Shown: positions 5,096 through 38,096 of the stretch, piece by piece
How positions within the stretch are numbered: position 1 is the first letter of the stretch
Layout of the letters: each line of letters opens with the position of its first letter
IMG/VR virus record: IMGVR_UViG_3300021197_001444
Coordinates: 1-40,151 of that record
From: a virus
Direction: 5' to 3' (one strand)
DNA: 40,151 nucleotides
Notes under the pieces: model-generated
The model's input: only the letters and a program-made list of their open reading frames with translations
The model's database searches: none
Told to the model about the DNA's origin: nothing
Translations under genes and position numbers: made by a program

Positions 5096-5457
5096 CCCAA
5101 GCCCTCCATTTTCTCAAGCGCTACAATCCGCTTGCGTATCTTCATTGCAATCTCGTGATGAATAGCCTCACCTCGCCTGTCACCATTGAGAATGCATTTG
5201 CTGGCATCAACCCCAGCGTCAATAAGGGCACTGTGAGCGGCCGTCAGGGCATAGTCGCAGGTATCACACTTACATTCCGGCGATTCCAAGGTGGTGGCGT
5301 CAAGCTTTACGCTGAACCGTTCGTCATCATAGTTGGCATTGGCGTTGCGGATAGCCTCCCCCAAGTCTGCGCGGCGACTGGTGGGTGGCTCCATGAACTC
5401 ATCGCTGGTTAGCTCTGCGGAGGGGCGGCGGTTGAATAGGTTGATGAGGAATTTCAT
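5092..5457 (-). CDS. Hypothetical protein with CxCxxC cluster
   Basis: 121 residues. The N-terminus (MKFLINLFNRR) is hydrophobic and basic but too short for a clear membrane segment. SPECKCDTCDYAL (about residues 59-71) and a further Cys (about 88) could bind metal. C-terminal half helical and basic. ATGA overlaps at both ends place it in a translationally coupled series between the methyltransferase and the KPLEW protein. No family recognised. Confidence 0.6.
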   Translation of the reverse strand: MKFLINLFNRRPSAELTSDEFMEPPTSRRADLGEAIRNANANYDDERFSVKLDATTLESPECKCDTCDYALTAAHSALIDAGVDASKCILNGDRRGEAIHHEIAMKIRKRIVALEKMEGLG

Positions 5458-6335
5458 GATTCTGACTCCAATATTGCACGGCCTATGATTTCAGGGATTT
5501 GGGGAACTACGGCGTTTCCGAGGGATTTAAGTCTGTCCACCCTGGCGGGAACCCCATGAGCCACTCTACCCACGTTGGGTTCAGGGAGCCATGTTGATCC
5601 CGAATAGTTACTGCGTCGTTTAGGCTGTTCGTCTCGCCGCGCCCTGACCTCTCGAGGGCTTCCGGTTTTCGCCCCCCCTTGTGGTCTCTCGCAGTCGGGG
5701 TTGGCCACATTCTTGCCGCCTGGGCCAAGTTCAGTCCAAACCCGTTTCCCGTGTGATGCTTGCCCTTTTTGTTTGTCTCTGACTTCACCTCGGCTCGACG
5801 CTCCGCAATCTGTTCCGGCGTCCAATTCTCCCGCGTGTAAAAAGTCGTTGGCGTGGGCAACAGTCCAAACTCTGTCTCGCCTGTGCGGGGCGTCGAGGGC
5901 GCAAGCTGGAATAATAAATGACCGGCAGGTGTAACCTTGTCCTTCCAAGTCAGAAAGCACGTCGTCGAGGCCCATGCTGATGTGCCCAGCAACGTTCTCT
6001 CCAATGACCCAAGAGGGCCGGAGCTCAGCCACGAGCCGACTAAATTCCGGCCAGAGATGGCGGTCATCTTTCTTGCCTCTTCGCTTCCCGGCTGTGGAGA
6101 AAGGCTGGCATGGGTATCCCCCGCAAATAACGTCAACTGCTCCAACGTCTGACCCTTTCAGCTTTCTAACATCCTCAAAGCACGGAACATCCGGCCAATG
6201 CTTTTTCAAAACCTTACGCGGAAAATCCTCGATCTCGCAAAAGGCAACCGTTTCAAATCCGCCCGTGCGCTCAAGGCCAAGAGAGAATCCGCCTATACCA
6301 GAGAACAAATCAAGCACTTTCAGCTTCCCATTCAC
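5454..6335 (-). CDS. C5-cytosine DNA methyltransferase
   Basis: 293 residues. All key motifs of the family are present: SAM-binding motif I (LDLFSGIGGF, about 8-17), catalytic GGYPCQPFS (Cys76), ENV (113-115), RRDRVW (152-157) and motif X (SLGNAVVPQI near the C-terminus). The target-recognition stretch (about 160-245) is long and basic. I chose GTG 6335: GGAGG sits 7 bases upstream and it overlaps the stop of the small membrane gene by GTGA; a GTG 8 codons further upstream is less likely. It probably shields phage DNA from host restriction; no matching endonuclease gene is nearby. A 212-codon frame is nested inside it. Confidence 0.93.
   Translation of the reverse strand: MNGKLKVLDLFSGIGGFSLGLERTGGFETVAFCEIEDFPRKVLKKHWPDVPCFEDVRKLKGSDVGAVDVICGGYPCQPFSTAGKRRGKKDDRHLWPEFSRLVAELRPSWVIGENVAGHISMGLDDVLSDLEGQGYTCRSFIIPACALDAPHRRDRVWTVAHANDFLHAGELDAGTDCGASSRGEVRDKQKGQASHGKRVWTELGPGGKNVANPDCERPQGGAKTGSPREVRARRDEQPKRRSNYSGSTWLPEPNVGRVAHGVPARVDRLKSLGNAVVPQIPEIIGRAILESES
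5507..6145 (-). CDS. Nested gene inside the cytosine methyltransferase (alternate frame)
   Basis: 212 residues, entirely within the methyltransferase gene in another frame. Start TTG 6145 with AAAGGG 7 bases upstream. The protein reads MEQLTLFAGDTHASLSPQPG, then SAWASTTCFLTWKDKVTP, LLPTPT (95-100), WPTPTARDHKGG (147-158) and LNPTWVEWLMGFPPGWTDL (188-206). To my knowledge this text is a recurrent phage protein family, found next to or inside Dcm-type genes, and LPTPTA...VEWMMGLP...GW occurs within some mycobacteriophage methyltransferases. That makes a chance open frame unlikely. Function unknown; an accessory to the methyltransferase is a guess. Confidence 0.6.
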   Translation of the reverse strand: MEQLTLFAGDTHASLSPQPGSEEARKMTAISGRNLVGSWLSSGPLGSLERTLLGTSAWASTTCFLTWKDKVTPAGHLLFQLAPSTPRTGETEFGLLPTPTTFYTRENWTPEQIAERRAEVKSETNKKGKHHTGNGFGLNLAQAARMWPTPTARDHKGGRKPEALERSGRGETNSLNDAVTIRDQHGSLNPTWVEWLMGFPPGWTDLNPSETP

Positions 6336-6448
6336 AGGAACACCCTCCACGCCAGCCACAGGCCAAACGCAGCCAGGGCAATTGCAACGAAGATGGCGCA
6401 GCGGGCTAGCGTGCGCATCTCACGGTCTAGGTTCATGTGGTCAGTCAT
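6332..6448 (-). CDS. Small single-pass membrane protein
   Basis: 38 residues, MTDHMNLDREMRTLARCAIF followed by a hydrophobic run (VAIALAAFGLWLAWRVFL) that is long enough to cross the membrane. The ATG (6448) overlaps the repressor stop by ATGA and its stop overlaps the methyltransferase GTG by GTGA, so it bridges the two genes. The packing is what makes it credible; there is no homology to cite. Function unknown. Confidence 0.65.
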   Translation of the reverse strand: MTDHMNLDREMRTLARCAIFVAIALAAFGLWLAWRVFL

Positions 6449-11997: not shown

Positions 11998-12199
11998 CCA
12001 GAGCGCCGCGAACACCAATGCCAAGAAGGCCGGTGTTGATCATTACAGCCGCAGGTATGCCGCCAGTCAGGTTGTTTATGGTGGTGACAATGCTGTCCAT
12101 CCCGTGCAGGGGTAACGTAGCCACAACAAGGCCCGCCAGAAGCGGAACAAGGGACGCCAGCCAGGTCAGGCTTGTCGGTTTGAAATACTTGCCAACCAT
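11990..12199 (-). CDS. Two-pass membrane protein of the lysis cassette
   Basis: 69 residues from ATG 12199 with AAAGGTTAATCCA upstream, overlapping the end of the endolysin gene by 34 bases. Two hydrophobic segments (TWLASLVPLLAGLVVATLPL and about AAVMINTGLLGIGVRGAL) joined by a short polar loop. The size and topology fit a holin or pinholin-type partner. No family recognised. Confidence 0.65.
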   Translation of the reverse strand: MVGKYFKPTSLTWLASLVPLLAGLVVATLPLHGMDSIVTTINNLTGGIPAAVMINTGLLGIGVRGALDD

Positions 12200-12918
12200 T
12201 GGATTAACCTTTCAATGAGTGTGGGGGATTTGGTTTTTACTTTGGGTTTTGCGTCAGGCATAGTCACCAGCGCAGAGAATAGGGCCTCACGAGTTTTCGG
12301 GCCAGAAATTCCATCAGCATCTAAGCCAACGGTCTGTTGAAAATCTTTCACGCCATCAATCCCAAATCCGAGAATAACCAGCGCAGCACGGTCAAACTTT
12401 TCCAGTCGGTCAGAATAACCATTCAACCCGCCATTGATGCGGCGCGTCACCATCTCGTGATTGCCACCGTCAACGTACTTGAGGGGGACGCGGGTGGTCC
12501 AGTACCATAGAGCACCAATGCCAAGCCAATCCGGTTTTTCTAGCGCCCCTGGCTTTGCCTCGAAGTCGGGGCAGTTCTTTCCGCTTTCGTGCGACCACTT
12601 TGTCAGGTGGCGATAGTTGAACCGGCCCGTGATCTGGATGACGTCACGCCCCATAAAGCGCTTACCATCTCCTGGCTGTGTGTTGCCAAGGTCAGCGCGA
12701 CCCTCATAACGCTTTTGCGCGTTGGTCGGCCCCCAGACCTCCTTAACATACCGCAGGTTTCCGCTCTCGTGCAGGATTTGAGCCAAGAACATGGCAAGCC
12801 GGTGCGGGCGCATCATATCACCGCCATTGGCGTTCAGGAAATTAGACAGAGCGACCTTGCGCGATGCGTACCGCGTGGAGTTGGTGATGTCGTCAAGCAT
12901 GTCTTTGGTAAGGATCAT
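12166..12918 (-). CDS. Endolysin: GH19 chitinase-like lysozyme with PG-binding tail
   Basis: 250 residues from ATG 12918 (ATGA overlap with the upstream gene, GAGGTGATCGA SD). GH19-type phage endolysins cleave the glycan strand of peptidoglycan. Seen here: AQILHESGNLRYVKEVWGPT with Glu51 and Glu60 in catalytic positions, NAQKRYEGRADLGNTQPGDG, and RFMGRDVIQITGR with FNYRHL. Residues about 187-218 (DGVKDFQQTVGLDADGISGP, then KTREAL) form a short PG_binding_1-like repeat. No signal peptide, so export to the cell wall needs a holin, and candidate holins are encoded on both sides. Confidence 0.92.
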   Translation of the reverse strand: MILTKDMLDDITNSTRYASRKVALSNFLNANGGDMMRPHRLAMFLAQILHESGNLRYVKEVWGPTNAQKRYEGRADLGNTQPGDGKRFMGRDVIQITGRFNYRHLTKWSHESGKNCPDFEAKPGALEKPDWLGIGALWYWTTRVPLKYVDGGNHEMVTRRINGGLNGYSDRLEKFDRAALVILGFGIDGVKDFQQTVGLDADGISGPKTREALFSALVTMPDAKPKVKTKSPTLIERLIQWLASISNRQA

Positions 12919-13049
12919 TCGATCACCTCTGTTTGTACGCATTCGGGGGCAGGCTCACAGGATTGCTCAACATCAACAAGCGTGGGCAAAGCTGCATTCG
13001 CGACAAGAGCCACAATCGCCGCACTCACAATAAGCTTGAACGTAGTCAT
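12915..13049 (-). CDS. Small signal-peptide protein of the lysis cassette
   Basis: 44 residues from ATG 13049, chosen because it overlaps the preceding stop by ATGA; the longer frame in this phase is composed of Arg/Gly/Ser-rich text typical of a non-coding frame. MTTFKLIVSAAIVALVANAA is a signal peptide or membrane anchor, followed by a short tail with two Cys (QSCEPAPECVQTEVIE). A spanin-like outer partner would need a lipobox, which is not visible. Role in lysis is inferred from position. Confidence 0.6.
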   Translation of the reverse strand: MTTFKLIVSAAIVALVANAALPTLVDVEQSCEPAPECVQTEVIE

Positions 13050-37403: not shown

Positions 37404-38096
37404 CTAAATATCCATGCCGGTTTGTTCCGGCGGTGTTGTTGGTGGCGCAACGAAAAGGTCAGGCTGGCGGTAGGCTTCTTCAACACGCGCGCAAGCAATG
37501 TCAAAATAATCAGGGTCCAACTCGATGCCGATGCCCTTGCGGCCTAGCTTGGCGCAGGCAACTAGGGTGGTGCCGCTGCCCATGAAGGGGTCAAAAACCA
37601 CGCCATCCGTCCACTCAATGACGTTTCGCATCAAATCCACGGGTTTCTGCGTCGGGTGGTACTCGTTCCCTGTTCGCGCCACAGTAATCACATCAACTGG
37701 ACGACCTGCCGGGAAAAAATGATCTTCACCCTTGTAGAAGGCACAAACCTCAGTTTTTCTCCCATGTTCATGCTCTAAGTCGCCCATTGAATGATTGTTC
37801 TTTACCCAAGTTATCAGGCTGCGAGGCTTAGAAATGTCGCCAAGATTATCCCACCTCATCCATATGTACTTGCTGTGAGCTGCGTGGATTTCACAGGCCC
37901 ACTGCAGCAGCCTAACATCACCGTCATTTTCAATAGATTTGTGCCTTTCGATCCGGTAGTTACTCTGGAAGGACATCCCATAAGGTGGATCTGTCACCAC
38001 GACATCAACCGGCCCCAACTCCCCCATCACCTCAAGGCAATCACCCAGTATCAACCGGCAATCGCCTATGCGTTCCTCGCGCTTGATAGCGGCCAT
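37404..38096 (-). CDS. DNA N6-adenine/N4-cytosine methyltransferase
   Basis: 230 residues. Motif IV is TDPPYG (DPPY 36-39), and the SAM motif I follows at the C-terminal side (FDPFMGSGTTLVACAKLG, about 167-184), the beta-class order. HPTQKPVDLM precedes it, also typical. DPPY indicates adenine or N4-cytosine methylation; the sequence alone does not decide. With the C5 methyltransferase this phage encodes two DNA-modifying enzymes of different chemistry, likely against restriction. SD AAGGAGAGACAC. Confidence 0.92.
   Translation of the reverse strand: MAAIKREERIGDCRLILGDCLEVMGELGPVDVVVTDPPYGMSFQSNYRIERHKSIENDGDVRLLQWACEIHAAHSKYIWMRWDNLGDISKPRSLITWVKNNHSMGDLEHEHGRKTEVCAFYKGEDHFFPAGRPVDVITVARTGNEYHPTQKPVDLMRNVIEWTDGVVFDPFMGSGTTLVACAKLGRKGIGIELDPDYFDIACARVEEAYRQPDLFVAPPTTPPEQTGMDI

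Follow-up and report, generated by a model that had tools for sequence, protein, structure and literature searches.

Organization of the nested locus

The window analysed here is the entire 40,151-base virus record IMGVR_UViG_3300021197_001444, which contains portal, terminase and major head genes. A reading frame for the large subunit of a C5-cytosine DNA methyltransferase (alpha, the outer frame) is located on its minus strand, and a second frame of 212 codons (beta, the inner frame) is nested within it, in the +1 frame of alpha. The first-pass annotation had described this nested frame, together with its Shine-Dalgarno-like AAAGGG, 7 bases ahead of a TTG codon, and its LLPTPT and other conserved-looking blocks; all of these elements were found again, at the following positions of the window.

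5454..6359, minus strand: alpha, large subunit of a C5-cytosine methyltransferase in the outer frame (301 aa, GTG start)
5850..6323, minus strand: alpha motifs I-VIII, large domain with catalytic PCQ, ENV and RxR (invariant residues, structural model, Foldseek)
5520..5834, minus strand: alpha residues 176-280, the expected place of the target-recognition domain (TRD) and motif IX, overprinted by beta (structural model, weak alpha-frame conservation)
5469..5531, minus strand: alpha motif X, LKSLGNAVVPQIPEIIGRAI (sequence, conserved residues, helix in the model)
6153..6158, minus strand: Shine-Dalgarno-like AAAGGG, 7 nt upstream of the beta TTG (sequence)
5507..6145, minus strand: beta, inner nested small subunit, +1 frame of alpha (212 aa, TTG start)
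5864..6145, minus strand: beta N-terminal domain, residues 1-94, over alpha motifs V-VIII (codon-position divergence)
5711..5863, minus strand: beta module 1, LLPTPTTFY...LNLAQAAR (module series, swapping, in-frame counterparts)
5588..5710, minus strand: beta module 2, the last module, MWPTPTARDHKGG... (module series, swapping, in-frame counterparts)
5528..5587, minus strand: beta motif IX, SLNPTWVEWLMGFPPGWTDL, the inner C-terminus (hhalign, M.HhaI alignment)

The beta start codon is TTG, and the position of the start varies among homologues. GAAAGG followed by TTG also occurs in the nearest relatives of the window among loci L001-L012, and a Shine-Dalgarno core of at least 4 nt precedes a beta start in 76 of 94 homologues. 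Two more minus-strand genes of the window gave PHROG matches: 37404-38096 encodes a second DNA methyltransferase, which belongs to another family (PHROG_67, 7e-49), and the product of 12166-12942 has a top PHROG match annotated as chitinase (4e-75), followed by endolysin families.

The outer frame lacks motif IX

The alpha sequence matches PF00145 (1.7e-41), over residues 13-173 only, and PHROG_363 (2e-85). Its profile aligns with residues 6-178 of M.HhaI, which comprise motifs I-VIII, and weakly, below threshold, with residues 298-318 (motif X); motif IX is missing from alpha in this alignment, unlike the single-chain relatives, which align to M.HhaI through IX and X. Among 58 homologues the residues P83 C84 Q85, E121 N122 V123, R161 and R163 are invariant, and the motif X residues L280 G281 N282 are conserved.

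For most of residues 8-175 the AlphaFold model of alpha is of high confidence, with a pLDDT of about 95 across most of the large domain, and it is so again in the motif X helix (residues 287-300). It matches M.HhaI, a protein of 327 residues, in Foldseek with an E-value of 1.4e-15 over about 167 columns. Residues from about 176 to 280, in contrast, are modelled at a pLDDT of 40-50 and almost without secondary structure, and the variable part of this segment is weakly conserved in the alpha frame; the stretch between motifs VIII and X is thus predicted to be disordered. Motifs I-VIII with PCQ, ENV and RxR, together with motif X, as expected of a C5-cytosine methyltransferase, are all found in alpha, but motifs IX and X do not occur in one chain, motif IX being located in beta, in the other frame. 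The first-pass annotation had assigned the C5-methyltransferase motifs, including X, to the outer frame, which holds for I-VIII and X and fails for IX.

The inner frame belongs to a recurrent family and carries motif IX

Pfam and NCBIfam detect the outer frame only, whereas PHROGs detects both. Beta is, by profile, a clear member of PHROG_1008 (3e-35, profile positions 36-283 of 329), a family labelled “DNA methyltransferase”, such that the label of a whole enzyme has been given to the nested frame and the overlap goes unmentioned in the search result. Searches of beta against Pfam, NCBIfam and PDB sequences gave no match, and its N-terminal domain had no known relative in the same searches; the beta model has a pLDDT of 62, and Foldseek returned no fold match. 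It is possible that the N-terminal domain is the part that binds alpha.

The C-terminus of beta aligns with motif IX of single-chain C5 methyltransferases (hhalign probability 97%, E-value 5e-11, 68% identity over 22 columns), and these single-chain enzymes align continuously at this place with KLHPRECARVMGYPDSY...QAYKQFGNSVV of M.HhaI. At the DNA level, the pattern of a motif IX block followed by motif X was found in 80 viral loci, with the two motifs in different frames in 41 and in the same frame in 39. One locus (L253) codes for an enzyme of the outer type that carries LNPNWVEWLMGFPVGWT in its own frame.

No free-standing beta was found in phages, plasmids, viral contigs or the 80 cellular loci, where the overlap was examined. 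In each of the 80 cellular loci, which represent many phyla, alpha lies in the -1 frame relative to beta. The same arrangement is found repeatedly in phages and prophages across many bacterial phyla. The PHROG_1008 match and the partner alpha in every cellular locus bear out the earlier suggestion of a recurrent phage protein family tied to Dcm genes. The chromosome of an uncultured Roseovarius (OX638333.1; L297-L301) contains, at five separate places, copies of the nested beta with identical match statistics, 65% identical to that of the window, which suggests repeated related prophages.

Beta modules are exchanged among betas with dissimilar N-terminal domains

Motif IX of beta is preceded by one to four units of roughly 25-50 residues with the pattern [LM]WPTPxxxDxKG...L..V, two of which are present in the window. 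The largest module family, that of the module 2 kind, always occupies the last position before motif IX. Among betas whose N-terminal domains are less than 60% identical, 134 module pairs are at least 70% identical. For example, L022 shares an identical 48-residue module with L064, L055 and L041, although the N-terminal domains are 45-47% identical. The DNA differences between L022 and these three loci fall at inner codon positions 1/2/3 as 1/0/7, 1/0/6 and 1/0/4, respectively; being mostly at inner position 3, they leave the inner protein unchanged and alter the outer-frame sequence.

In L228, L221 and L229, LLPTP-type modules are encoded in frame with the methylase, between motifs VIII and IX, and the +1 frame of these three loci shows no significant stop deficit. 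Since this in-frame location is the target-recognition position, we infer that the modules act as target-recognition units, and their position, modularity and swapping suggest that they read DNA.

Both frames are under selection

Of the synonymous-codon shuffles of the window's outer gene, 5.6% contained a +1 frame just as long, so that the window alone is only borderline and offers no proof. Homologous viral loci were therefore of greater weight: 80 were fetched with the inner query and 80 with the outer one (76 of them new), giving 156 distinct loci. All 156 had both frames, always in one register with the inner frame at outer + 1, and so did the 80 cellular loci. The shuffle comparison employed 62 distinct loci picked by the outer protein only, each set against the best of 30 shuffles. 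In these loci the +1 frame was open over 227 codons on average, compared to 105 in the shuffles; the openness was significant at p<=0.05 in every locus and at <0.0034 in 43 of them. The match to the window's inner protein averaged 172 bits, compared to 56 in the shuffles, and all 62 loci scored above their own best shuffle. In GC-rich loci, the whole-gene stop count is a weaker test than the longest open stretch. Of 14 genomes serving as a negative control, 10 contained a C5 methylase (PF00145) and none contained PHROG_1008.

Divergence at outer codon positions 1/2/3 was calculated from sequence pairs at 80-97% nucleotide identity. Upstream of the overlap, the values (0.089/0.054/0.346) are those of an ordinary outer gene. 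Within the overlap over motifs V-VIII they drop to 0.053/0.020/0.091, such that the alpha third positions, which are the beta second positions, diverge by 0.091 over the beta N-terminal domain as opposed to 0.346 upstream. In the variable region (0.354/0.184/0.192) and in the motif IX block (0.112/0.046/0.057) the fastest position is inner position 3, and past the inner stop the outer signature returns (0.105/0.070/0.289). In the variable region, codons conserved in the inner frame only are 4.7 times as frequent as those conserved in the outer frame only. The two outcomes named beforehand as evidence against an inner gene, namely stops at the chance rate and substitutions synonymous for the outer frame only, were both looked for, and neither was found: amino acid identity in the variable region favours the inner frame (0.535, compared to 0.360 for the outer). 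Codon-position divergence and amino acid identity together indicate that both frames are selected, with the inner one dominant in the variable region, and with the shuffle tests and the cellular loci they uphold the earlier proposal that the inner frame is kept by selection.

It could be argued that the +1 frame is open, and similar among loci, by chance, as a product of the composition and conservation of the outer protein. The borderline result for the window, the average of 56 bits still reached by shuffled homologues, and the N-terminal domain scores of distant loci, which often lie inside the synonymous-shuffle range and were accordingly dropped as evidence for those loci, would agree with such a shadow. 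Yet every shuffle is beaten in the 62 loci collected with the outer protein, within the overlap the wobble position becomes that of the inner frame, swapped modules keep their beta sequence as the alpha sequence changes, and PHROG_1008 is missing from control genomes, most of which possess a C5 methylase. A shadow reading frame is scarcely credible on this evidence, and was rejected on the shuffles across loci, the codon wobble and the silent beta differences in swapped modules.

Architectures among the relatives

The relatives of the window can be arranged in four types.

Type A (window): alpha with I-VIII and X; nested beta with modules and IX
Type B: alpha with I-VIII, IX and X; nested frame with modules only
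Type C: alpha stops after VIII; overlapping beta has IX and X (L177, L209, L243, L188, L252)
Type D: everything in one chain (L228, L221, L229)

In type B, the codon signature of the IX-X stretch is that of the outer frame (0.199/0.100/0.497), and that of the module stretch belongs to the inner frame (0.542/0.381/0.410). The motif IX stretch therefore follows the alpha signature when the motif is in alpha, and the beta signature when it is in beta. Alpha third positions are barely reduced over the N-terminal domain stretch of type B (0.431, compared to 0.510), and the nested frame is thus well supported there over the modules only. In the five type C loci the overlapping +1 frame contains IX and X in frame, a split through the overlap that resembles that of M.AquI.

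Twelve loci (L184, L187, L193, L196, L206, L208, L213, L215, L234, L238, L240 and L251) code for single-chain phage C5 methylases of the LCTGYGGLD type with motif IX, and all of them also possess a long +1 frame with LLPTP modules and no IX, open far beyond the shuffles. The methylase of Mycobacterium phage Ochi17 (L173) seems to be broken or rearranged, with short annotated “DNA methylase” pieces, and the N-terminal part of its outer frame resembles the product of another gene. Both frames have been annotated by the depositors in coliphage K1ind1 (L159, “DNA methyltransferase” twice) and in Paenibacillus phage Shelly (L165, “g55 internal gene”), as opposed to most other records inspected, in which just one of the two frames is annotated.

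Comparison with known split and multispecific methyltransferases

The small polypeptide of M.EcoHK31I is reportedly read from an alternative frame within the large gene, as Lee et al. are said to have found in 1995, and the nesting of beta in an alternative frame of alpha in the window would be of the same kind. Like M.EcoHK31I (YGGCCR), with which the comparison is by description, the window divides its motifs, with I-VIII and X in alpha and IX in the smaller beta. The two-polypeptide nature of M.EcoHK31I is biochemically established, with I-VIII and X in the large subunit, IX alone in the small one, and the predicted TRD placed in the large subunit (PMC3404938). The TRD-like modules of the window, in contrast, are in the nested frame. 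M.AquI (CYCGRG) is likewise a naturally split alpha/beta C5 methyltransferase, the small subunit of which contains IX and X; the window differs in having motif X in alpha, and the type C loci are those that resemble the M.AquI geometry. We therefore count the locus as a variant among the C5 methyltransferases that are split in nature, without assigning it firmly to the M.EcoHK31I family, from which it differs in the TRD feature.

In the multispecific C5 methyltransferases of the Bacillus phages SPR, phi3T and rho11, a single chain read in one frame harbors several target-recognition modules that can be exchanged. The variable region of the present family also contains exchangeable modules, putative target-recognition units, but in a nested frame and a putative second polypeptide. 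Our search of a literature library yielded no description of a phage-wide nested family or of its swapped modules, and nothing further on multispecific TRDs. What appears to be new is a beta with one to four swappable modules encoded in dual-coding DNA, together with the change of frame of motifs IX and X.

A probable two-polypeptide enzyme and the alternatives

Both frames are under selection, motif IX is absent from alpha and present in beta, and single chains bear motif IX and the modules in frame at the TRD position. From these observations we consider it highly likely that a single C5-cytosine DNA methyltransferase is made as two polypeptides from one stretch of DNA, alpha as the catalytic subunit and beta as the small domain for recognition. 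The assignment of the large domain to alpha and the small domain to beta draws on relatives whose motif IX lies at the target-recognition position of one chain, at least three of which have LLPTP modules there as well. Alpha would thus provide SAM binding, the catalytic cysteine and motifs I-VIII and X. Beta would be translated from an internal start on the same mRNA, with its own Shine-Dalgarno sequence and TTG, and would contribute motif IX together with the N-terminal domain and a pair of interchangeable target-recognition modules. Alpha and beta may then assemble, presumably as a heterodimer, into an active enzyme that would mark the phage DNA at a target sequence set by beta; its role in the phage is probably self-protection from host restriction. 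The function of the inner protein was originally given as unknown; with motif IX and modules at the target-recognition position, beta is best interpreted as a small-domain subunit belonging to a split methyltransferase, and very likely contributes the DNA-reading half that alpha lacks.

The published layout of M.EcoHK31I is a precedent for a narrower role, in which beta would give motif IX only and target recognition would reside in alpha. We consider this unlikely, since the alpha segment between VIII and X is modelled as disordered and its conservation follows the beta frame, the type B nested frame retains the modules where IX is absent, and single chains place the modules at the TRD position. 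Programmed frameshifting could instead yield one long protein, by passing from I-VIII to the inner frame for the TRD and motif IX, and back for motif X. Relatives with modules, IX and X in a single frame and chain are in keeping with such a product, but two shifts would be required, beta has its own Shine-Dalgarno sequence and start, and the beta N-terminal domain would be left untranslated even though the alpha third positions there are strongly constrained; frameshifting thus seems highly improbable.

It is slightly less improbable, but still quite doubtful, that beta is a separate regulator or inhibitor of the methyltransferase, or an unrelated overprinted factor, as might be supposed from an N-terminal domain without known relatives and a model without a fold match. 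Its C-terminus, however, is an enzyme motif that alpha lacks, the identical order is retained in single-chain fusions, and beta was not found apart from alpha in the 80 cellular loci.

Beyond the window, and in addition to the split enzyme itself, we think it likely that the family maintains a library of TRD modules of C5 methyltransferases in dual-coding phage DNA. The cassettes would be swapped in the beta frame between distant backbones, the alpha frame would serve there as an open, disordered tether, and motifs IX and X would hop between frames over evolution, giving at least four architectures.

Implications

It is rare for long nested genes on the same strand to be functionally legible in both frames. 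Here the two nested products appear to be halves of one enzyme, which would give the arrangement a reason, since one mRNA could yield both. Many phage and prophage “DNA cytosine methyltransferases” in the databases would then be incomplete without the nested gene, which is usually dropped or mislabelled in annotation, and the specificity of such enzymes could be neither predicted nor tested if only the annotated gene is cloned. Fused, split and frame-swapped forms among the relatives would constitute a rare natural series on the movement of domains between reading frames.
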